A DNA stretch of 64,000 nucleotides, taken from positions 1,758,501 through 1,822,500 of the forward strand of contig NZ_CP069128.1 of NCBI RefSeq assembly GCF_029637485.1, read 5' to 3'. The stretch is from Sphingomonas sp. LHG3406-1. Its GTDB lineage: Bacteria > Pseudomonadota > Alphaproteobacteria > Sphingomonadales > Sphingomonadaceae. The notes below the pieces were generated by a model. That model was given only the letters and a program-made list of their open reading frames with translations, ran no database searches and was not told where the DNA came from. The position numbers and the translations under genes are program-made. This document shows positions 14,337 through 37,481 of the stretch, one piece after another (within the stretch, counting starts at the first letter, position 1; each line of letters begins with the position of its first letter).

Positions 14337-15653
14337 TTACCTAGCGGCGGACCGGACCTTCGGCCTGGCTACTCCGTCACGGTCGTTGAGGGCCGTGAGC
14401 ACCGGCGCATCGCGCTTGTAGAGATCGGTATACTTGACGATGTTGCCGTCGTTCAGCGCGGCAATCGAGAAATAGACGATGTAGACCGGCACCGGCTTCA
14501 CGAAGGTGGCCGCGACCGTCTTCTTCGATTCGAGCACGCCGTCGATCCGCTCGCGCGTCCACTCGCCGCCATCGTCACTCAGCAGCTCGGCCGCGAGGTC
14601 GAGGATATGCTCGGTGCGGATGCAGCCGTGGCTGAGAAAGCGCGAACGCGCGTCGAACAGGCCGCGGTTGTTGGTGTCGTGCAGATAGATGTTCTGCGGA
14701 TTGTACATGGTGAACTTGATCTTGCCGAGCGCATTGCCGGGCCCCGGCGGCTGCCGCCAGCGCTGCACGGTCCCGTCCTTGCGCTTGACCGCGACATAGC
14801 CGGCCTTGCCCGCCACTTCGCGCGACAGGCTCGGCGGCACCTCCCACCAGGGATTGAGGACCACGCCGGTCGCCTGCACCGCAAGCTGCGGGGTCGGGGT
14901 CTTCACCGCGCCGGCGATCGCCCGCCGCTTCCAGCGAGTGACGCTATCCTCGACGAGGGTGGCGTGTTCGCCGGGCACGTTGACGATGATATAACGGCTG
15001 CCGAGGTCGCGCGGCAGCCAGCGCCAGCGATCCATGTTGATGCGGATCTTGCCCACTGTCGCCGAATCGTTCGGGTCGGCCTTGGCGAGCGCGGCCTTGA
15101 GCGAGAGATATTGCGGGTGCGTCGGAAGCAGGCCGTTCAGCACGGTCGCGATGCCGACCCCGCCGATCGCCTGGTCGAGATGCGTGCGAAGCGCGCCTTC
15201 GGGCAGGTCGGGGTCGCGCACGTACCACTGGACCCGCGACGATCCGCGGACGTGGCCGAGCGCGAGATCGGTCGCGACCTTGTTGAAGGTGGTGGTCGCA
15301 ACCGCCGACATCGCGACCGGATCGCCGCCCTTCATTGCCGCCTCGAGCAGGGGAAGGTCATAGTCGCGCGGATCGAGGCCCTCGCGGCCGACCTGCCGGA
15401 CGTAGGCGAGCAGTTCGGCGACTTGGGCCTGTTGCCATACGGGCGGGGGAAGCTCGACCACCGGCGGCGCCTCCGGCGCTACGGGGCTGCCTGGCTGCGC
15501 GGGCGCCGGGGCGAGCGGATCGGCCCGCGGAGCCGTGGCGACCGGCGCGGCCGGAGCCATGTTCGGCGCCACCGGCGGGCGCGTCTGCGCCCAAGCCGTT
15601 CCAGCGCCCAGAGCCAGCATCACCGAACCCGCAACCAACCCGCGCATTTCCAT
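14337..15653 (-). CDS. YcbB/LdtD-like L,D-transpeptidase
   Basis: This 438-residue exported protein has a signal peptide (residues 1-22), a 50-residue Pro/Ala linker, a scaffold domain (about 75-205) and a YkuD catalytic domain (about 220-400). Catalytic landmarks are YLHDT (H325) and FLSHGCIRTEH with nucleophile C344; PVYIVYFSIAALNDG after the domain is typical of YcbB-type enzymes. These form 3-3 meso-diaminopimelate cross-links in peptidoglycan. The start could be residue 1 or the Met at residue 3. Its upstream region contains a perfect 20-bp palindrome. Confidence 0.92.
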   Translation of the reverse strand: MEMRGLVAGSVMLALGAGTAWAQTRPPVAPNMAPAAPVATAPRADPLAPAPAQPGSPVAPEAPPVVELPPPVWQQAQVAELLAYVRQVGREGLDPRDYDLPLLEAAMKGGDPVAMSAVATTTFNKVATDLALGHVRGSSRVQWYVRDPDLPEGALRTHLDQAIGGVGIATVLNGLLPTHPQYLSLKAALAKADPNDSATVGKIRINMDRWRWLPRDLGSRYIIVNVPGEHATLVEDSVTRWKRRAIAGAVKTPTPQLAVQATGVVLNPWWEVPPSLSREVAGKAGYVAVKRKDGTVQRWRQPPGPGNALGKIKFTMYNPQNIYLHDTNNRGLFDARSRFLSHGCIRTEHILDLAAELLSDDGGEWTRERIDGVLESKKTVAATFVKPVPVYIVYFSIAALNDGNIVKYTDLYKRDAPVLTALNDRDGVARPKVRSAAR

Positions 15654-26857: not shown

Positions 26858-29800
26858 TCAGTGCGTCGGGCAGTTGATGATCCGTGCCTTGGGGATGATC
26901 TCGGCCTCCCGCGGGTGGCGGGCCATGGGTGGGCGGCTGGGACCGGCGCCGTCGCCGCGGCCGACCCGGGGATCGAGCGCCTGGCCGTCGCTCAATGTCC
27001 GCAGCCGCCAGCTTTCGTCTTCCAGCCGGCTGGCGATCAGGTGGCAGACCGCCTCGTCATGCTGGACGATGCCGTGGACGACCATCAGCCGTGCGCCCAT
27101 CACCACCTTGCGCTGCGCGGCGAAGGCATCGGGCCAGACGACGAGATTGGCGGTGCCTGTCTCGTCCTCGAGGGTGATGAAGCAGACGCCCTTGGCGCTG
27201 CCCGGCCGCTGCCGGATGAGGACCAGCCCGGCGAGGCTGACCCGTCTGCCATAGCGGATGTCGCGCAGGTCCGCGGCACGGACGAAGCCCTGGGCCGCAT
27301 AATGGTCGCGCAGGAACTGCATCGGATGCGCCTTCAGGCTGAGGCGCAAGGTCTGGTAATCGCTGACCACATGCTCTGCGAGCGGCATGGTGGGGAGGAC
27401 GGCCTTCTCCCTTTCCTCGCCTTCATCCCGCGCCCGGGCGGCGGCGAAGAGGGGGAGTTCGGGCGAGGGCCGGAGAGCGCGGGCGTCCCACAGGGCTTGC
27501 CGGCGGTCGAGTCCGATCGAGCGGAAGCAGTCGGCCTCGGCGAGGCGGACGACGGCATGGGGCGGAACTCCGCCGCGGCGGTGCAGGTCTTCCACCGTGG
27601 CATAAGGGACGGCGGCGACGAGGCGCGCGGCATCCATGGCGCGGAGGCCCTCGACCTGGCGGAGGCCGAGGCGGAGGGCGACTTCTCCCCTCCCGCTTGC
27701 GGGAGGGGTCGGGGGAGGGCCTGTGCGAGGAGCATTTGACACGCCCTCCCCTCCGCGCTTCGCGCTCCTCCCCTCCCGCAAGCGGGAAGGGATGTGCTCC
27801 AGTGAACAATCCCAGCCGCTCTCGTTCACGTCCACCGGCAGCACCGTCACGCCATGCGCTTGCGCGTCCTTCACGATCTGGGCGGGCGCATAGAAACCCA
27901 TCGGCTGCGAATTGAGCAGTGCCGCCGCGAAGGCCGCCGGATAGCGCCAGCGCAGCCAGCTCGAGACATAGACGAGGTGGGCGAAGCTGGCCGCGTGGCT
28001 TTCGGGAAAGCCATATTCGCCGAAGCCGCGGATCTGGTGGAAGCAGCGTGTCGCGAACTCGCGCTCGTAGCCGCGCGTCACCATGCGTTCGACCATCTTG
28101 TCCTGGAGGAGGTCGATGGTGCCGCGGCTGCGGAAGGTGGCCATGGCCTTCCTCAGCTGGTTGGCCTCGGCCGAGCTGAACCGCGCGGCGTCGAGCGCGA
28201 TCTTCATCGCCTGCTCCTGGAACACCGGCACGCCGAGCGTGCGCTTGAGGATCCGCTCCAGCTCGTCGGGCGGGCCATGGTCCGGCGAAGGCCGGGGATA
28301 GACCACCGCCTCCTTGCCCTGCCGGCGCTTGAGATAGGGGTGGACCATGTCGCCCTGGATCGGTCCCGGACGGACGATCGCCACTTCGATGACCAGGTCG
28401 TAGAAGCAGCGGGGCCGGAGCCGTGGCAGCATGTTCATCTGCGCCCGGCTTTCGATCTGGAAGACGCCGAGCGAATCGCCCTTGCACAGCATGTCGTAGA
28501 CTTGGCTCTCCTCGCGCGGGACGGTGGCGAGTTCCCATGTGTCGCCGTGCACCTCCTCGATCAGCTGGAAGCATTTGCGGATGCAGGTCAGCATGCCGAG
28601 CGCAAGCACGTCGATCTTGAGGATTCCGAGGTCCTCGATGTCGTCCTTGTCCCATTCGATGAAGGTGCGGTCGGGCATGGCGCCATTGCCGATCGGCACC
28701 GTCTCGATCAGCGGCCGCTCGGTCAGGATGAAGCCGCCGACATGCTGGGAAAGGTGGCGCGGCATGCCGATCAATTGTTCGGCGAGCCGGATGGTCCGGG
28801 CGAGGTGGGGATCGGAGAGGTCGAGCCCGGCTTCCCTGACGTGGGTCTCGGTGACGTCCTCGCCCCAGCCCCAGATGGTGCCGGCGATGGCCGCGCAAAT
28901 GTCCTCGGAAAGGCCCATCACCTTGCCCACCTCCCGGATGGCCGAGCGCGGACGATAGTGGATCACGGTCGCGCACAGCCCCGCGCGGTCGCGGCCGTAC
29001 TTCTCGTAGATGTGCTGGATCACCTCTTCGCGCCGCTCATGCTCGAAATCGACGTCGATGTCGGGCGGCTCGCGGCGTTCTTCGGAGATGAAGCGCTCGA
29101 ACAGGAGGTCGGTGGAGGACGGATCGACCGCGGTGATGGCGAGGCAGTAGCAGACCGCGCTGTTCGCCGCCGACCCGCGGCCCTGGCAGAGGATCGGCGG
29201 CTCGCACGAGCGGGCGAAGGCGACGATGCTGTGGACGGTGAGGAAGTAGCGGGCGAAGTCGAGCTTCTCGATCAGCCGGAGTTCGTGGTCGATCTGCCGG
29301 ACCACCCTGTCGGGCACGCCGTCCGGATAGCGCTCCTTCGCGCCTTCCCAGGTGAGGTGGACCAGTTGCTCCTGCGGGGTGCGTCCCTCGGGCACGCTTT
29401 CGCGCGGATATTCGTAGCGGAGCTCGTCGAGGCTGAAGTCGAGGCTGTCGGCGAACGCGCGGGTGGCCCGGATCGCATGCGGCCAGCGGGCGAACAGCCG
29501 CGCCATCTCCTCCGGCCCCTTGAGGTGCCGCTCGGCATTGGCGTGGAGGCGGTAGCCGGCTTCGGCCAGCGTCACCTTCTCGCGGATGCAGGTGACGATA
29601 TCCTGCAGCGGCCGCTTCTCGGGTGCGTGATAATGGACGTCGTTGGAAGCAAGGATGGTCCCGCCGATGCCCCGCGCCATGCGGTCGAGCCGCTCGATGC
29701 GGGCGAGGTCGTCGCCCCGATAGAGATGCGTTGCGGCGATGTGGCGGAGGTCGGGGATGGCGGCGAGAATCCGCGGCAGCCGGGCCTCGAACGCGTCGAG

Positions 29801-30367
29801 GTCCTCGCCCGGCCAGGCGATGAAGGCGATCCCCTCGCGATGGTCGGCGACATCGTCGAGCGACAGGTCGCACGCGCCCTTGACCGCCCGGCCCTGGCCG
29901 AGGCTGAGCAAGCGGGCGAGGCGGGCATAGCCTTCGCGGTCGACGGGATAGGCGAGGAGTTCGATCTCTTCCTCTCCCCTTCCGCTTGCGGGCGGGGCTG
30001 GGGGAGTGCCTGCCACCAGTCGCAACAAGCCCTCCCCGTCGCCACTCCTCGGCTCTTCCTCCTCCGCGCGTGGACAGGGGGAGTCGTGCACCACCAGCCG
30101 GCACCCGATCAGCGGCCTGAGTCCGGCCGTCCTGGCATTGGTGTGGATCCTGACCACGCCGGCCAGCGTGTTGCGGTCGGCCACTCCGATCGCGTCCATG
30201 CCGAGGTCCATGACGGCCGGGATCAGTTCGAGCGCGTCGGACACGCCGCGGAGGAAGGAAAAAGGGGTGGCGATGCCAAGCTCGACGAATGGCGCCCTGG
30301 GGATGGGCGCGAGCGGGCCGCCGCTCCGCTCCAGCCGGCGGCGGGCATAGCCTTCCTGTTCAGGCAT
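26858..30367 (-). CDS. dnaE2: Error-prone DNA polymerase DnaE2/ImuC, with two in-frame repeat insertions
   Basis: This 1169-residue C-family polymerase performs translesion synthesis in the SOS response with ImuA and ImuB. A PHP domain opens the protein (ATPFSFLRGVSDALELI); the polymerase acidic triad lies within PPDIDVDFEHERR and nearby strands, and a C-terminal OB fold ends in RLEDESWRLRTLSDG. DnaE2 proteins are usually near 1080-1090 residues. The excess fits two low-complexity inserts, at about residues 96-134 and 858-896. Both are encoded by palindrome-rich DNA and both fall in loops between conserved blocks (before IELLAYPVDREG and before ALRLGLRQVEGL). The reading frame is intact throughout. 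Confidence 0.95.
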   Translation of the reverse strand: MPEQEGYARRRLERSGGPLAPIPRAPFVELGIATPFSFLRGVSDALELIPAVMDLGMDAIGVADRNTLAGVVRIHTNARTAGLRPLIGCRLVVHDSPCPRAEEEEPRSGDGEGLLRLVAGTPPAPPASGRGEEEIELLAYPVDREGYARLARLLSLGQGRAVKGACDLSLDDVADHREGIAFIAWPGEDLDAFEARLPRILAAIPDLRHIAATHLYRGDDLARIERLDRMARGIGGTILASNDVHYHAPEKRPLQDIVTCIREKVTLAEAGYRLHANAERHLKGPEEMARLFARWPHAIRATRAFADSLDFSLDELRYEYPRESVPEGRTPQEQLVHLTWEGAKERYPDGVPDRVVRQIDHELRLIEKLDFARYFLTVHSIVAFARSCEPPILCQGRGSAANSAVCYCLAITAVDPSSTDLLFERFISEERREPPDIDVDFEHERREEVIQHIYEKYGRDRAGLCATVIHYRPRSAIREVGKVMGLSEDICAAIAGTIWGWGEDVTETHVREAGLDLSDPHLARTIRLAEQLIGMPRHLSQHVGGFILTERPLIETVPIGNGAMPDRTFIEWDKDDIEDLGILKIDVLALGMLTCIRKCFQLIEEVHGDTWELATVPREESQVYDMLCKGDSLGVFQIESRAQMNMLPRLRPRCFYDLVIEVAIVRPGPIQGDMVHPYLKRRQGKEAVVYPRPSPDHGPPDELERILKRTLGVPVFQEQAMKIALDAARFSSAEANQLRKAMATFRSRGTIDLLQDKMVERMVTRGYEREFATRCFHQIRGFGEYGFPESHAASFAHLVYVSSWLRWRYPAAFAAALLNSQPMGFYAPAQIVKDAQAHGVTVLPVDVNESGWDCSLEHIPSRLREGRSAKRGGEGVSNAPRTGPPPTPPASGRGEVALRLGLRQVEGLRAMDAARLVAAVPYATVEDLHRRGGVPPHAVVRLAEADCFRSIGLDRRQALWDARALRPSPELPLFAAARARDEGEEREKAVLPTMPLAEHVVSDYQTLRLSLKAHPMQFLRDHYAAQGFVRAADLRDIRYGRRVSLAGLVLIRQRPGSAKGVCFITLEDETGTANLVVWPDAFAAQRKVVMGARLMVVHGIVQHDEAVCHLIASRLEDESWRLRTLSDGQALDPRVGRGDGAGPSRPPMARHPREAEIIPKARIINCPTH
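27685..27791. repeat. Composite palindromic element inside dnaE2
   Basis: A 22-base palindrome (cccctcccgc-tt-gcgggagggg, 27687-27708) and an inverted second unit (tcccgc-aa-gcggga, 27774-27787) flank a gcgcttcgcgc hairpin. The segment keeps the dnaE2 frame and encodes a Gly/Arg/Pro-rich insert of about 39 residues. Confidence 0.8.
29971..30072. repeat. Second palindromic element inside dnaE2
   Basis: The core ccttccgcttgcgggcgggg (29979-29998) is a diverged copy of the same palindrome, followed by pyrimidine/purine-biased sequence to about 30072. In frame it encodes the Glu/Pro/Gly-rich insert at about residues 96-134 of DnaE2. Confidence 0.7.
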
Positions 30368-30376
30368 GGTCCCGCC

Positions 30377-31912
30377 TCACGCGAACAGCCCGTGGACGAA
30401 CCACGCCGGCGGGCCGCCGCGACCGTCGCCGACCAGGCCCTGGCGGAAGATCCAGAAGCGGCGGCCTTCGCTGTCCTCGACCTTGTAATAATCGCGCAGC
30501 CGGGCGCTCGACCGCTCGCGCCACCATTCGGGGGAGATCCGCCGCGGGCCCTGGGCCCGGGCGATGTCATGGACCTTGCGCCGCCAGACGAAGCGTCGTG
30601 GCAGGCCTTCGGGCGTGGCATAGATGACGGCGATCTCCTCGGGCGAGTCGAGCAGGCGGGTGGGATCGTCGCCTTCCCGCTTGCGGGAGGGCGTGGCGGG
30701 CAGGGAAGCCGCCACCCCTTCCACCCATCCCGCCGCCCGTTCGGGCACATGGCTCTCCGCCGGTGCCGGCCGCCGCACCTTGCCCGGTCCCAGCCGCACG
30801 CTCAGCCGGTCGACCAAGGCGGCGATGGCGGTGTCGGCGGTGGGCGGCCCGAGCAGGGCCTCCTGCGCGGAATCGAGCCGTTCCCACCAGCGCACCTCAA
30901 GCGCGAAGGCGTCGATGCCGAAGCCCGGATCGATCCCCTGCCGCTCGAGCATGCCCGACAGCAGGCGGTGGAGGTGGCCGGGCTCGCGCGACGGGATGGA
31001 GGTGGCGACCTCCACCTCGCCGAGGCTGCCGTCGACCCGATAGGCGGTCAGCACCAGCTGCCGGGCGCCGAGCTTGCGGGTCTCGAGCTCCCGCGCCAGC
31101 CGGGGGACGAGCTGGCGCAGCGCCTGCTCCAGCGCTTCCGGATGCACCACCGGCTCCTTGATCGGCAGCAGCGCGCGGGGCGGCGGGTCCTCCGGCAGCG
31201 GGGTCAGCGGCTCGGGCTTGCGCCCCAGCGCCCGGTCGAGCGCGTCCAGCGGATGCTCGTCCCTGGGGAATCGCCGGGCGAGCGTCTTGCGCGGCACGCC
31301 GGCAAGGTCGCCGACCTGCTTCAGCCCGAGCCGCACCAGCATGTGGGTGGCGATCGGTGACAGGCGCAGCGCGCCGACGGGGAGCGGGGCGAGGACCCGC
31401 GCCAGCTCCTCCTCATGGACCGGGCGCGGCCGGGGGGCGTAGCGGGCAAGGGCCCAGGCCGCGCCGGCCGTCGGCGCGACCGCCGCCCGCGCGCCGACAC
31501 CCATGGCCTCGAACCGGGCCACCATGTCGCCGAGCAGGCCCTGCTCGCCCCCGAACAGATGGGCGATTCCGCTCACGTCGAGGCGCAGGGCGTCGCTTCC
31601 GTCCACCTCGACCAGCGGCGACCAGCGGCTCGCCCAGCGCGCCGCGGCGCGCAGCCAGGCGGCCTCGCCGGCGACATCGGCCGCTTCCGCTTCCAACGCG
31701 GGATCGAGGGCACGGGCATCGGCGAGCCGGCCGCCGGGCCGCGCCCCGCGCTCCGCCGCGGCCGGCGTCACCGCATGGATCAGCTGGCCGTGGCGGCCCT
31801 CGACGGTGAGGACCAGCGTCCGGGCAAGCGCCGCCTCAGGCGTGCCGCTGCCATTGGCCCAGCGCTCGATCGCCAGGTTCGGCAGCCACAGGGAGCAGAT
31901 CCGGCGCTTCAT
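30377..31912 (-). CDS. imuB: ImuB, Y-family polymerase-like mutasome adaptor
   Basis: This 511-residue Y-family homologue has lost the catalytic acidic residues: the N-terminus reads LWLPNLAIERW instead of the DxD-type motif, and VDGSDALRLDVSGIAHLFGG lacks the SxDE pair. ImuB is known as a non-catalytic hub that bridges the beta clamp, ImuA and DnaE2. A palindromic element encodes an extra low-complexity stretch at about residues 398-415. The C-terminal block RRFWIFRQGLVGD is typical of ImuB. It overlaps imuA by 77 bp and precedes dnaE2 by 9 bp. Confidence 0.94.
   Translation of the reverse strand: MKRRICSLWLPNLAIERWANGSGTPEAALARTLVLTVEGRHGQLIHAVTPAAAERGARPGGRLADARALDPALEAEAADVAGEAAWLRAAARWASRWSPLVEVDGSDALRLDVSGIAHLFGGEQGLLGDMVARFEAMGVGARAAVAPTAGAAWALARYAPRPRPVHEEELARVLAPLPVGALRLSPIATHMLVRLGLKQVGDLAGVPRKTLARRFPRDEHPLDALDRALGRKPEPLTPLPEDPPPRALLPIKEPVVHPEALEQALRQLVPRLARELETRKLGARQLVLTAYRVDGSLGEVEVATSIPSREPGHLHRLLSGMLERQGIDPGFGIDAFALEVRWWERLDSAQEALLGPPTADTAIAALVDRLSVRLGPGKVRRPAPAESHVPERAAGWVEGVAASLPATPSRKREGDDPTRLLDSPEEIAVIYATPEGLPRRFVWRRKVHDIARAQGPRRISPEWWRERSSARLRDYYKVEDSEGRRFWIFRQGLVGDGRGGPPAWFVHGLFA
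30668..30723. repeat. Palindromic element inside imuB
   Basis: The core tcccgc-tt-gcggga at 30675-30688 is identical to the central 14 bases of the dnaE2 element, with a trailing gggcgtggcgggcaggg segment. It is in frame and encodes a Ser/Pro/Arg/Lys-rich stretch. Confidence 0.75.
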
Positions 31913-32636
31913 CGCCGACCAGCCAGGTGCCGGGAAGCCGGCGGCGGGAGCGGAACAGCTCGGCCTTCCAGCGCGGCGCGCCGGGTGCCCTCAAATCGAA
32001 CGGATGATCGGCGCTGGGTGCGCTGGCAAGGCGCCAGCGTTCGCGCGCACCGCTGAGGTTGGCGCTGCCCTGCAGCCGGATCAGCCAGCAGGCGACGCCC
32101 GACCGCTCGGACGCCACGGCCAGGCGCCGGGTCGCGGTGAAGTCCAGCGCGGCGGAATCGCCCCAGAGTTCGCCGATGACTCCCCCTAGCGCCGGACATC
32201 GGAGCCCCTCCTCCATCGCCCACAGCGCCGCCTTGGCATCGCGCGCCTCGACATGGATGAGGCGCGGTGCGGCTGCGCCGAGCCCCGCCGCATGGACCCG
32301 CCCCGCCTCGAGGATCGCCATCCGCTCCTGCACCCACAGCAGCGGCTTGGACGGGGCGAGCCGGGCGAGGACGAAGCCGGTCCAGCCGGCATCGCGCGGG
32401 GAAGCGGCGAACAGTTCGGAGAGGATGGCTTCGTGCCCCCTCCCTGCCGCCGGCGGTGGTGGGGAGGGCGACCGCTCGGCCGGAGGCCGCGTGGTGGAGG
32501 GGCCGCCAGCGTCGCCAGGGGCCCCTCCATCCCCGTGCCGCGTACGGCGGTCCCCCTCCCCATTGCCATGCAACGGGGAGGTTGAAGAGGCCGCGCGGGA
32601 TCCCCCGCCGGCGACCAGGCGAAACCTTGGGTCCAC
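31836..32636 (-). CDS. imuA: ImuA (RecA/SulA-like mutasome protein) with repeat-derived N-terminus
   Basis: This 266-residue protein has the ImuA core from about residue 69: ILSELFAASPRDAGWTGFVLARLA, PLLWVQERMAILEAGR, RLIHVEARDAKAALWAMEEGLRC and a strand near ACWLIRLQG. ImuA interacts with RecA and ImuB in SOS mutagenesis. Residues about 10-68 are low-complexity (Gly/Ser/Pro/Arg) and are encoded by palindrome-rich DNA, so the usual N-terminus is replaced or interrupted. The GTG at 32636 lies 19 bp from a LexA box; a later internal start is possible. Confidence 0.8.
   Translation of the reverse strand: MDPRFRLVAGGGSRAASSTSPLHGNGEGDRRTRHGDGGAPGDAGGPSTTRPPAERSPSPPPPAAGRGHEAILSELFAASPRDAGWTGFVLARLAPSKPLLWVQERMAILEAGRVHAAGLGAAAPRLIHVEARDAKAALWAMEEGLRCPALGGVIGELWGDSAALDFTATRRLAVASERSGVACWLIRLQGSANLSGARERWRLASAPSADHPFDLRAPGAPRWKAELFRSRRRLPGTWLVGDEAPDLLPVAAEPGDRALGQWQRHA
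32439..32600. repeat. Cluster of palindromic repeats in the 5' part of imuA
   Basis: Several inverted units lie in series: ctgccgccggcggtggtggggaggg, a gcgtcgccaggggcccctcc area, and cctccccattg...caacggggagg (about 32563-32581). The class differs in sequence from the tcccgcttgcggga units of imuB/dnaE2 but has the same style. Frame is maintained. Confidence 0.6.
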
Positions 32637-32654: not shown

Positions 32655-32669
32655 GTTCTGCTTTTGTTC
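32655..32669 (-). promoter_or_regulatory. LexA box of the imuA-imuB-dnaE2 operon
   Basis: GTTC-TGCTTTT-GTTC is an exact match to the alphaproteobacterial LexA site GTTC-N7-GTTC (GAAC-N7-GAAC read on the operon strand). It sits 18 bp upstream of the imuA GTG, where LexA would block transcription until DNA damage. Confidence 0.85.
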
Positions 32670-32718: not shown

Positions 32719-33258
32719 CTAGCGGGCGAGGAAGCGGTTCATCCCGAGTGCGCCGGCATGATCGCGCTCGGCAGCGAGGGCGAAGCGCGCGAACTGGCGC
32801 AGGGTCGGGCTTCCGCCCGCCGCCGCGAACCGCTCATGCAGGATCACGGCCTCCTGATGGGCCTGGAGCAGGCGGCGCTGCAGCCCGACCTCGAACGGCT
32901 GGCTGGCTTCCAGCATGGCGAGCCACTGCCGTTCGGTGGCGTTGAGCCGCGGCGAGGGCAGCAGGTTCACGCGCTGCCCGGCCATGCGCAGCTGGGCGGA
33001 CAGGCCGCGATGATCGGTGGCGAGCGCCTCGAGCCGGTTGCGAAGCGCCGGATCGCGGGTCCGCTCCAGCCCCAGCGCGCAGGCCCGGGCGACAAACTGC
33101 TCGATCGAGGCGATGCGCGTGACATAGTCGACAGGCGTGAGGGCGGGTCCGGGCACCTGAACCGGGCTCGGCGCGGGGCGTGGCGCAGGAACGGGCATCG
33201 GCGCCTTGGTCGCGCAGCCGGCGAGGAGGAGCGCGAACAGAGGGAGAAGCTTGCGCAT
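32719..33258 (-). CDS. DUF4142-like lipoprotein
   Basis: This 179-residue protein has a lipoprotein signal ending LLAGC and a Pro/Ala linker. Its helical domain (about 45-175) has paired His-containing segments, LATDHRGLSAQLRMAG and LLQAHQEAVILHERFAA, that recall the ferritin-like DUF4142 fold. The family's function is unknown. The start could be the ATG at 33258 or one three codons earlier at 33267. It lies between the SOS operon promoter and fumC, on the same strand as both. Confidence 0.75.
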   Translation of the reverse strand: MRKLLPLFALLLAGCATKAPMPVPAPRPAPSPVQVPGPALTPVDYVTRIASIEQFVARACALGLERTRDPALRNRLEALATDHRGLSAQLRMAGQRVNLLPSPRLNATERQWLAMLEASQPFEVGLQRRLLQAHQEAVILHERFAAAGGSPTLRQFARFALAAERDHAGALGMNRFLAR

Positions 33259-33261
33259 GAT

Positions 33262-33353
33262 CGTCATCCCGGGCTTGAGCCGGGATCCGCCTGCCTTCGC
33301 CCGGGCAGCCGAAGGAAGAAGAAGGCGGGCCCCGGGTCAAGCCCGGGGCGACG
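33262..33353. repeat. Inverted pair of intergenic repeats between fumC and the lipoprotein gene
   Basis: Units at 33262-33286 (cgtcatcccgggcttgagcc...) and 33329-33353 (its near reverse complement) face each other and are each internally palindromic around cccggg-cttga. The pair could fold into a long cruciform and fills the whole intergenic gap. Confidence 0.7.
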
Positions 33354-35885: not shown

Positions 35886-37481
35886 ATGAGATTTGCCCGC
35901 GTCAAACCGCTCGACGCCATTCTGGCGACGGCCGAGAAGAAATCACTTCACCGCTCGCTTGGCGCGATCCAGCTGACCCTGTTCGGGATCGGCTGCGTGA
36001 TCGGCACCGGCATTTTCGTTCTGACCTCGGCCGGTGCGCAAAAGGCCGGCCCAGGGCTGATGCTGGCGTTCGCCATCGCCGGCGCCATCTGCATCGTCGC
36101 CGCCCTCTGCTATGCGGAGATTGCGGCCATGCTCCCGGTCGCAGGCTCCGCCTACACCTACACCTATTCGGTGATGGGCGAACTGCTCGCCTGGACGGTC
36201 GGATGGGCGCTGGTGCTGGAATATGCGGTCGCAGCATCGGCGGTATCCGTCGGCTGGTCAGGCTATTTTTCAGGGACCATCCTGAATGAGTTCTTTGGGG
36301 TGCAATTGCCGGCGTGGCTTGCGGCCGGTCCGCTGGCGCTCGGCGGCGCCCCTGGCGGCCTGATCAACCTTCCGGCGCTGGTGATCGCCCTCCTGGTGAC
36401 CTGGCTCCTGATGATCGGCACCAGCGAAAGTGCCAAGGTCAACGCCGTGCTGGTGGCGATCAAGGTGACGGCCCTGACCGCTTTCATCATCCTCACGCTG
36501 CCCGCCGCCGAGGCCGAGAAATTCAACCCGTTCCTGCCCGCGGGCGTGTTCGGGGGGTTCGGCTCGGGTGTCGGAGCGGTGGGCGCGGCTGCGACCATCT
36601 TCTTCGCTTATGTCGGCTTCGACGCGGTCTCCACCGCGGCCGAGGAAACCCGCGATCCGCAGCGCAACGTGCCGATCGGCCTGGTCGGCAGCCTGCTGTT
36701 CTGCACCGTCTTCTACATCCTGGTCGCCGCCGGCGCGATTGGCGCCTCTCCAACCGGCGGTCAGCCGATCTTCGGTCCGAACGGCATTCCGTTCCCGGCC
36801 GGTTCGGAGGAACTCGCCCGGCAGTGCGCGCTCCCGCAGTATAGCGAGTGGCTGGTCTGCTCCAACGAGGCGCTTGCGCACGTGCTGCGCGAGATCGGTT
36901 ATTCCTCGATCGGCAACATGCTCGGCATCGCGGCCTTTGTCGCCCTGCCGTCGGTCATCCTGATCCTGTTGTTCGGCCAGACCCGCATCTTCTTCGTGAT
37001 GAGCCGCGACGGCCTTCTTCCCGAGAAGCTCTCGACCATCCATCCAAAGTGGAAGACCCCCTACATCGTAACGGCGCTGACCGGCGCGGTGGTTGCGGTG
37101 GCCGCGGCCTTCCTCCCGGTCGGCGCGCTTGCCGACATCGCCAATGCGGGCACGCTCTACGCCTTCATGATGGTGGCGATTGCGGTGATGATGCTCCGCA
37201 AGACCGAACCCAACCGGCCGCGCAAGTTCCGGACACCGGCCTTGTGGTTGATCGGCCCGCTGACCATTGCAGGCTGTATCTTCCTGTTCCTCAACCTTCC
37301 GTTTGAAGCCATGATCGTCCTGCCGGTCTGGGCTGGGATCGGCCTCGTCATCTACTATCTCTACGGTTACCGCCACAGCCACCTTGGCCGCGGCATCGTC
37401 GAGGTGCCGGAAGCGGAAGTCGACATGCTGCAGCCGAACGTAGCTGGCATCGGCGGCGAAGGCCCTGATCAGCGCGACTGA
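35886..37481 (+). CDS. APC superfamily amino acid permease
   Basis: This 531-residue protein has about 12 membrane helices and the APC substrate-binding signature LFGIGCVIGTGIFVLTSAGAQKAGPG. A conserved FFAYVGFDAVSTAAEE helix follows, then RIFFVMSRDGLLPEKLS. That pattern is close to the cationic amino-acid transporter subfamily (YfnA/CAT-like). An extended loop with two cysteines (QCALPQYSEWLVC) lies before helix 8. Substrate cannot be assigned from sequence alone. It converges with the kinase gene at a strong terminator. Confidence 0.9.
   Translation: MRFARVKPLDAILATAEKKSLHRSLGAIQLTLFGIGCVIGTGIFVLTSAGAQKAGPGLMLAFAIAGAICIVAALCYAEIAAMLPVAGSAYTYTYSVMGELLAWTVGWALVLEYAVAASAVSVGWSGYFSGTILNEFFGVQLPAWLAAGPLALGGAPGGLINLPALVIALLVTWLLMIGTSESAKVNAVLVAIKVTALTAFIILTLPAAEAEKFNPFLPAGVFGGFGSGVGAVGAAATIFFAYVGFDAVSTAAEETRDPQRNVPIGLVGSLLFCTVFYILVAAGAIGASPTGGQPIFGPNGIPFPAGSEELARQCALPQYSEWLVCSNEALAHVLREIGYSSIGNMLGIAAFVALPSVILILLFGQTRIFFVMSRDGLLPEKLSTIHPKWKTPYIVTALTGAVVAVAAAFLPVGALADIANAGTLYAFMMVAIAVMMLRKTEPNRPRKFRTPALWLIGPLTIAGCIFLFLNLPFEAMIVLPVWAGIGLVIYYLYGYRHSHLGRGIVEVPEAEVDMLQPNVAGIGGEGPDQRD

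Follow-up and report, generated by a model that had tools for sequence, protein, structure and literature searches.

The mutasome operon imuA-imuB-dnaE2 of Sphingomonas sp. LHG3406-1 carries palindromic repeat DNA inside its genes, and this locus raises the question of whether a self-mutagenic operon preferentially tolerates or acquires such repeats. The operon lies within a stretch of 64,000 nucleotides (the window; contig NZ_CP069128.1, positions 1,758,501 to 1,822,500) of a host genome that is a single contig of 2,845,504 bases (G000). An initial annotation had placed palindromic repeats in frame in dnaE2, imuB and imuA, and this was confirmed from the open reading frames (ORFs) and the repeat positions. 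The best reading of these insertions, and one that we consider likely, is that mobile repeats are tolerated in permissive loops of the proteins. The four elements are listed here, with F1 to F5 being the names that we coined for the repeat families.

27685..27792, unstranded: DnaE2 site 2, a complete F1 element of two facing palindromes; codons about 859-892, within the HHH_6 match; folding z -7.0
29971..30072, unstranded: DnaE2 site 1, a decayed F1 element; PHP-domain turn flanked by two predicted strands, codons about 97-132
30668..30723, unstranded: imuB, half of an F1 element, located between the matches to IMS_C (253-325) and DUF6504 (433-497); core with one mismatch
32436..32600, unstranded: imuA N-terminal linker, an element of the F2 family with cores at codons 36, 55 and 65 from the frame opening

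A dispersed repeat family within the mutasome genes

The 16-base palindrome CTCCCGCNNGCGGGAG is the F1 core and, as had been proposed, is common to dnaE2 and imuB. It is found at 27690-27705 without mismatch, at 27773-27788 and 30674-30689 with one mismatch each, and at 29979-29994 with two. When up to 3 mismatches were allowed, the 64-kb window contained 25 cores against 24.3 expected, which is the chance level, so that the window by itself is no proof of a family. In the whole genome (2.85 Mb), however, a search allowing up to 1 mismatch gave 51 matches, whereas the reversed control gave 3, and the unit is commoner than GC-rich composition would produce by chance. Within the window, matches of this quality are restricted to dnaE2 and imuB.

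Three of the 51 matches belong to the mutasome, and the other 48 fall into 33 clusters elsewhere (32 fetched stretches). Paired facing palindromes spanning 67-115 bp were found in 19 of the 33 clusters, with up to 3 mismatches allowed in the partners; one of the 19, L124, was judged to be native coding sequence. F1 is a dispersed palindromic repeat family. It has at least one match in 51 of the 61 genus genomes, with the highest number in the host genome. The 19 paired elements are somewhat short of stop codons: of the 6 frames, an average of 4.6 are open, compared with 3.7 after shuffling and 3.9 in neighboring DNA. The peptides that F1 encodes are alike between sites (for example, SRLREG...PPASGRG).

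Two further families were counted in the same way. The F2 arm, GCGGTCCCCCTCCCC, has 22 matches at up to 1 mismatch in the host genome against 1 for the control, and 249 against 41 over the 61 genus genomes (sums counted by hand), while F3 has matches in 35 of the 61 genomes and a single control match in total.

Repeat-derived inserts in DnaE2

DnaE2 has 1169 amino acids (aa), whereas the consensus of 113 orthologues has 1081, in agreement with the earlier estimate that the protein is about 80 residues longer than usual. The alignment of DnaE2 from 41 genomes places the extra residues at two positions, site 1 (about 97-132) and site 2 (about 859-892), and the two inserts comprise 38 and 34 residues. 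In most repeat-free relatives each site is a short turn, and no repeat-free orthologue carries the same inserted residues at either site.

Both dnaE2 segments had been described as palindromic. This stands for site 2, at which the element is complete, but the site-1 element has decayed in this genome: its right half matches F1, its left half is decayed, and its folding z is +0.3. Clear F1 versions of the site-1 element are present in sister species, with z values of -6.9 (L074) and -4.1 (L077).

The AlphaFold2 model of DnaE2 has a mean predicted local distance difference test score (pLDDT) of 80.1, and its sole long internal segments below 50 are residues 102-131 and 864-892, which lie between strands 84-94 and 134-141 and between strands 855-858 and 896-899, respectively. 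The DnaE2 inserts are thus predicted to be disordered surface loops. By profile, the site-1 turn has extra residues in solved DnaE chains as well, 5 in 5fku and 14 in 2hpi.

Comparison of the DnaE2 core with those of four sisters gave nonsynonymous divergence (dN) of 0.064-0.091 and synonymous divergence (dS) of 0.48-0.56, and both DnaE2 and ImuB are under purifying selection outside the inserts. The insert-bearing mutasome proteins are presumably made and active.

Elements in ImuB and ImuA

Only one half of an F1 element is present in imuB, and the length of ImuB there does not exceed that in close relatives without it. The proposal that each element adds loop residues holds for the two DnaE2 inserts but is not borne out for imuB of this species, where there is no net extra length. 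In other species, full elements of other families occupy the imuB site.

Palindromic DNA had been reported for all three genes. It is present in all three, but the imuA cluster is F2, not F1. Across the genus, sequence conservation begins immediately behind a LexA-type box and covers the stretch upstream of the imuA element, which speaks for the GTG start and for translation of the F2 element. The whole imuA stretch, including the element, is therefore probably coding, as judged from this conservation. Exact F2 cores are found in imuA of 2 of 28 genomes; motif hits in imuA extend to 7 of the 28, those beyond the exact cores being one-mismatch hits.

The same loops hold different repeats in relatives

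The DnaE2 and ImuB loops of related species hold other repeat families, at least five by eye. F1 is present at these loops in L074, L077 and L080, for example, and F3 (GTTCGTCCTGAGC...GTCGAAGG) in L078, L082, L094 and others. Within imuB, F2 is found in L082, L083 and L096, and a CATTGCGAGCGAAGCGAAGCAATCC family in L098. A CGTCATTCCCGCG family occupies DnaE2 site 2 of another genus (L107).

With insert classes assigned by eye, as they also were for the load tests below, the minimum number of class changes on the tree of 33 DnaE2 cores was 7 at site 1 and 11 at site 2, and it was 8 for imuB (31 genomes). When only the presence or absence of a repeat was scored, the minima were 5, 9 and 6.

Internal insertions of at least 10 aa, of any kind, were found in 27 of 53 DnaE2 and 24 of 50 ImuB proteins of the genus. 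The first 33 genus operons came mostly from the top scores among 61 genomes, obtained with an insert-bearing query. The 8 of the 61 outside the 53, namely G128, G130, G144, G152, G154, G156, G167 and G170, were left out, being fragmentary or split or having no clear dnaE2. Among the 20 genus members that were added regardless of insert, such insertions were found in 9 of 20 DnaE2 and 6 of 18 ImuB proteins. A folding z below -3 at site 1 or site 2, taken as strong palindromy, was seen in 17 of the 53 DnaE2 genes (12 of 33 in the first set and 5 of the 20 added).

We then counted insertions of at least 15 residues in 113 DnaE2 proteins, 33 from the genus and 80 from named Alphaproteobacteria. 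The named loci, which comprise several Sphingomonadales and other Alphaproteobacteria, were the best 80 of at least 592; all 80 gave DnaE2 and 71 gave ImuB. The insertions lie mostly at five turns: site 2 (32 of 113), consensus position 141 (15), position 84, which is site 1 (14), position 67 (7) and position 828 (7). Relative to codon shuffles, the folding z was below -3 in 17 of the 32 site-2 inserts, 9 of the 14 site-1 inserts, 4 of 15 at position 141, 3 of 7 at position 828 and 0 of 7 at position 67, and the control medians were -0.35 for site 2 and -0.4 for site 1. Because only part of the inserts at each turn reach this value, the insertions are not all repeats.

Palindromic site-2 inserts are also present in other Alphaproteobacteria, for example Roseomonas (L238), Reyranella (L235) and Caulobacter (L233). 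Separately, Bradyrhizobium DnaE2 has palindromic insertions at consensus position 828 (L252, z -6.6; L267, z -4.6; L276, z -7.3). Another site-2 insert, of the RRSWGST type (QRRSWGSTALP...PDSLPPPSPR), was observed in L081, L084-L089, L105 and L414.

F1 within other genes of the host genome

Pfam scanning of 40 ORFs took in 30 of the 33 F1 clusters outside the mutasome, L126, L129 and L134 being left out. F1 was found in frame within seven other conserved genes: those for MutL, HrpB, ValRS, IleRS, PccA, cyclopropane-fatty-acid synthase and 2-oxoacid dehydrogenase E2. With F1 in these seven genes, two of which encode tRNA synthetases, a preference particular to a self-mutagenic operon was not borne out.

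In alignments with solved chains, 40 residues of IleRS stand opposite 3, 32 residues of cyclopropane synthase opposite 4, and 59 residues of HrpB opposite 31; PccA has 11 net extra residues and is less sharp. The ValRS insertion at 410-445 was found in the host genome alone among the 29 aligned; the ValRS of G168, which is outside the 29, matched across the 410-445 stretch. In dehydrogenase E2, F1 lies between two domain matches as judged from Pfam positions alone. The MutL linker varies in all species looked at, and by eye it shows a similar turnover of repeat-like peptides.

Several other ValRS loops in the genus (L369-L398) also carry insertions that are species-specific, and ValRS open frames there reach 1025 aa. 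F1 matches in MetH (L138) and LacI (L124) were rejected as native sequence, the Pfam matches running through them ungapped. In the neighborhoods of UDG, YlxR, MurB, HemW, an ABC transporter and an inositol phosphatase, F1 lies outside the matched domain.

Insertion excess over control genes

Internal insertions of at least 10 aa were found in 18 of 33 genomes for DnaE2, 17 of 32 for ImuB, 7 of 29 for ValRS and 2 of 30 for MutL. None was found in DnaE1 (0 of 20), an M16 peptidase (0 of 30), an amidohydrolase (0 of 30), a histidine kinase (0 of 12) or FumC (0 of 7), and the difference between DnaE2 and DnaE1 gave p = 1.7e-5 in Fisher's test. This count of lengths is independent of any motif and takes in any insertion. 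In effect it leaves out imuA (0 of 28), because local alignment trims the N-terminal linker.

The control set is small and non-random. For three of them, size and Pfam match guided the choice from among the genes of the window, and MutL and ValRS were chosen for carrying F1 in this genome. The loci used of those fetched were 12 of 30 for the histidine kinase, 7 of 33 for FumC and 29 of 30 for ValRS. For the amidohydrolase, the N-terminal part (about 225 aa) is not kept open in many relatives, and the rest, mostly about 400 aa aligned, serves as the control.

Motif hits were also compared with expectation from three codon shuffles; hits in the shuffles were counted singly, and those observed were combined within bins of 60 bases. 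The numbers were 42 against 6.0 for dnaE2, 18 against 4.3 for imuB, 9 against 1.7 for imuA, 13 against 2.3 for mutL, 5 against 1.7 for ValRS and 4 against 2.7 for dnaE1; for the M16 peptidase, amidohydrolase, histidine kinase and FumC they were 3 against 4.0, 0 against 1.0, 0 against 1.7 and 0 against 0.3. This motif count leans towards the mutasome because the F2 to F5 cores were written after the mutasome inserts had been read. In a post hoc test, the operon holds 2 of 35 F1 clusters where 0.07 would be expected (P = 0.0024).

Tolerance, benefit or targeting

Tolerance in permissive loops could work as follows. Several short, GC-rich, mostly stop-free palindromic families would spread through these genomes by some route, and copies landing in genes would normally be lost. 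The copies that survive would be those that keep the frame and lie in linkers or turns at the protein surface, where 10-60 additional residues would be harmless. In the genus, the landing sites are two DnaE2 turns (PHP domain and HhH region), one ImuB linker and the N-terminal linker of ImuA. These loops are filled repeatedly, in this scheme by whichever family abounds in the species, and the inserts would then decay. The inserts would be neutral, and tolerance rather than targeting or benefit would set the pattern.

The repeat loads of whole genomes are consistent with this scheme. Genomes with F1 in the mutasome have a genome-wide median of 20 F1 copies against 2 in the others (9 and 24 genomes; p = 3e-5, or 3e-4 after subtraction of 4 copies per carrier). 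The medians are 9 against 1 for F2 (p = 0.003, or 0.025 after the same subtraction) and 4.5 against 0 for F3 (p = 6e-4). Genomes with a mutasome element thus tend to carry many copies of the same family. The scheme is also supported by the relative lack of stop codons in F1, the purifying selection on the DnaE2 core, the predicted disorder of the DnaE2 inserts, the variable length of the site-1 turn in solved DnaE chains and the elements in ValRS and IleRS.

Several observations weigh against tolerance as the whole explanation. The F3 load relation is gone after the harsh subtraction of 4 copies per carrier (p = 0.6). The insertion frequency of DnaE2 exceeds that of ValRS (p = 0.02), an excess that would be compatible with pure tolerance but does not follow from it. 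DnaE1, which has the same architecture, is uninserted although the synthetases are not, so that tolerance alone needs stricter loops in DnaE1. The RRSWGST-type insert is conserved over 35-37 residues in nine species and is non-palindromic (z -0.7 to 1.9); in a tenth genome, G133 (L090), an F3 element lies beside RRSWGST-like sequence at site 2. This insert may be an old one put to use. The extra site-1 residues of L081 and L091 also lack a palindrome (z 0.5 and -0.1). Some inserts are, so, of other origin, decayed or put to use.

The alternative that survives best is the mutator hypothesis (PMC3733652), by which mutasome and repair genes are preferred since inserts alter their activity and are favored under stress. 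The insertion excess over five control genes, the F1 element in MutL and the palindromic site-2 inserts of Roseomonas, Reyranella and Caulobacter would all suit it. However, in the host genome F1 is also carried by ValRS, IleRS, PccA, HrpB, cyclopropane synthase and dehydrogenase E2; the inserts decay; those of DnaE2 are predicted by AlphaFold2 to be disordered; and the peptides at one site are dissimilar, so that no common function is visible. We consider this hypothesis unlikely. Just as unlikely, in our view, is the wider proposal that different mobile palindromes preferentially and repeatedly land in the mutasome across Alphaproteobacteria because an altered or looser assembly of DnaE2, ImuB and ImuA would be periodically favored, so that selfish repeats would help to tune the mutation rate.

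It is less probable still that the loops are physical insertion hot spots, preferred as targets by a transposition machinery rather than merely survivors. Although insertions do recur at the same codons, families of unlike sequence share a site, which makes a single target preference unlikely. Moreover, a search for the Y1 transposase (PF01797) of the repetitive extragenic palindrome (REP)-associated tyrosine transposase (RAYT) type gave no match in the host genome and matches in 3 of the 61 genus genomes. Mobilization of the repeats by a RAYT has no support from this search; a RAYT that moved them may since have been lost or may be beyond the reach of the PF01797 model.

Chance GC-rich palindromes or low-complexity coding sequence, with nothing mobile, would fit the window count at 3 mismatches and the imuB copy without added length, but this origin is hardly credible and was rejected on the genome-wide count of F1 and the paired elements in other clusters, with the insert gaps in DnaE2 orthologues and the folding scores at sites 1 and 2 also against it.

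The operon and its surroundings

The three genes lie on the minus strand in the order imuA, imuB, dnaE2, behind a LexA-type box.

26858..30367, minus strand: dnaE2 (imuC), error-prone DNA polymerase, 1169 aa; ORF with Pfam matches to PHP, DNA_pol3_alpha, finger, HHH_6 and OB
30377..31912, minus strand: imuB, 511 aa; ORF with Pfam matches to IMS, IMS_C and DUF6504
31836..32636, minus strand: imuA, 266 aa, GTG start; ORF with an N-terminal stretch kept across the genus
32655..32669, plus strand: LexA-type box GTTCTGCTTTTGTTC, directly upstream of imuA

DnaE2 is 88% identical to its nearest relative, and the Pfam scan gave no match for ImuA. We take GTTCTGCTTTTGTTC to be a LexA-type box from the form of such boxes, and a box of this type is near the imuA frame opening in all 28 genus genomes listed. 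Two more GTTC-N7-GTTC boxes are present in the window, at 14644-14658 and 36791-36805; they may be chance occurrences, since 3 boxes were seen against 1.16 expected. An Rfam search at gathering thresholds returned only a tRNA in the window.

The dnaE2 gene looks split over frames in G128 and G170, as does imuA in G157, which suggests that the mutasome is dispensable or decaying in these genomes or that the assemblies contain errors.

The repeats elsewhere in the window had been described as intergenic. The sole other repeat that we looked at, an inverted repeat at 33262-33353 with 31-base arms that are 84% complementary (CGTCATCCCGGGCTTGAGCCGGGATCC...), is essentially so. It lies between a small ORF at 32719-33267 and fumC and by eye resembles repeats of the CGTC type.

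Relation to known repeats and significance

The likeness to the Rickettsia palindromic elements (RPE), which the initial annotation had drawn, was supported: the elements described here are in-frame protein-coding palindromic elements of the RPE kind. Like RPE-1 and the others, they lie in frame in functional genes, add residues and have varied targets. The Rickettsia elements have other sequences and reside in AT-rich hosts. Unlike them, the elements here include several families at one landing site.

The closest precedent is a 2013 study (PMC3733652), which describes REPs inside genes, many of them for replication and repair, and names DnaE2 and tRNA synthetases, with examples from E. litoralis and S. 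alaskensis included. It proposes that insertions of this kind may play a part in mutator strains and also offers neutral insertion in linkers and loops. It further mentions that in recB of two Xanthomonas species different REPs are inserted at one and the same site, and the CGTC type is said to be without a dedicated transposase. In its main text, ImuA, ImuB, the mutasome and MutL do not appear. The GTAG and CGTC REPs described there resemble F1 in being short palindromes, often facing dimers, mostly intergenic and in some cases in frame in genes. By eye, F1, F2 and F3 differ from them in having no CGTC or GTAG tag, while F4-type copies (CGTCATTCCCGCG...) look like CGTC-type REPs. Among enterobacterial small mobile sequences, repeats like miniature inverted-repeat transposable elements are reported to carry reading frames within genes (PMC2759123); they belong to other hosts and other families. 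Among open-licence PMC papers, we found no closer report on coding palindromic repeats in Rickettsia, Sphingomonas, Sphingomicrobium, ImuA/ImuB or DnaE2.

The presence of repeats in DnaE2 and repair genes, and the mutator question, are thus already known from the 2013 study. What is added here is the swapping of families at fixed mutasome loops, with DnaE1 as a clean control. The locus amounts to a natural experiment, in which the same loops of an error-prone polymerase are refilled by different mobile repeats, filled and empty orthologues exist in sister species, and a DnaE1 paralogue serves as a control. The 2013 speculation on repeats and mutator evolution becomes testable, and the inserts point to a route by which bacterial proteins acquire disordered segments.

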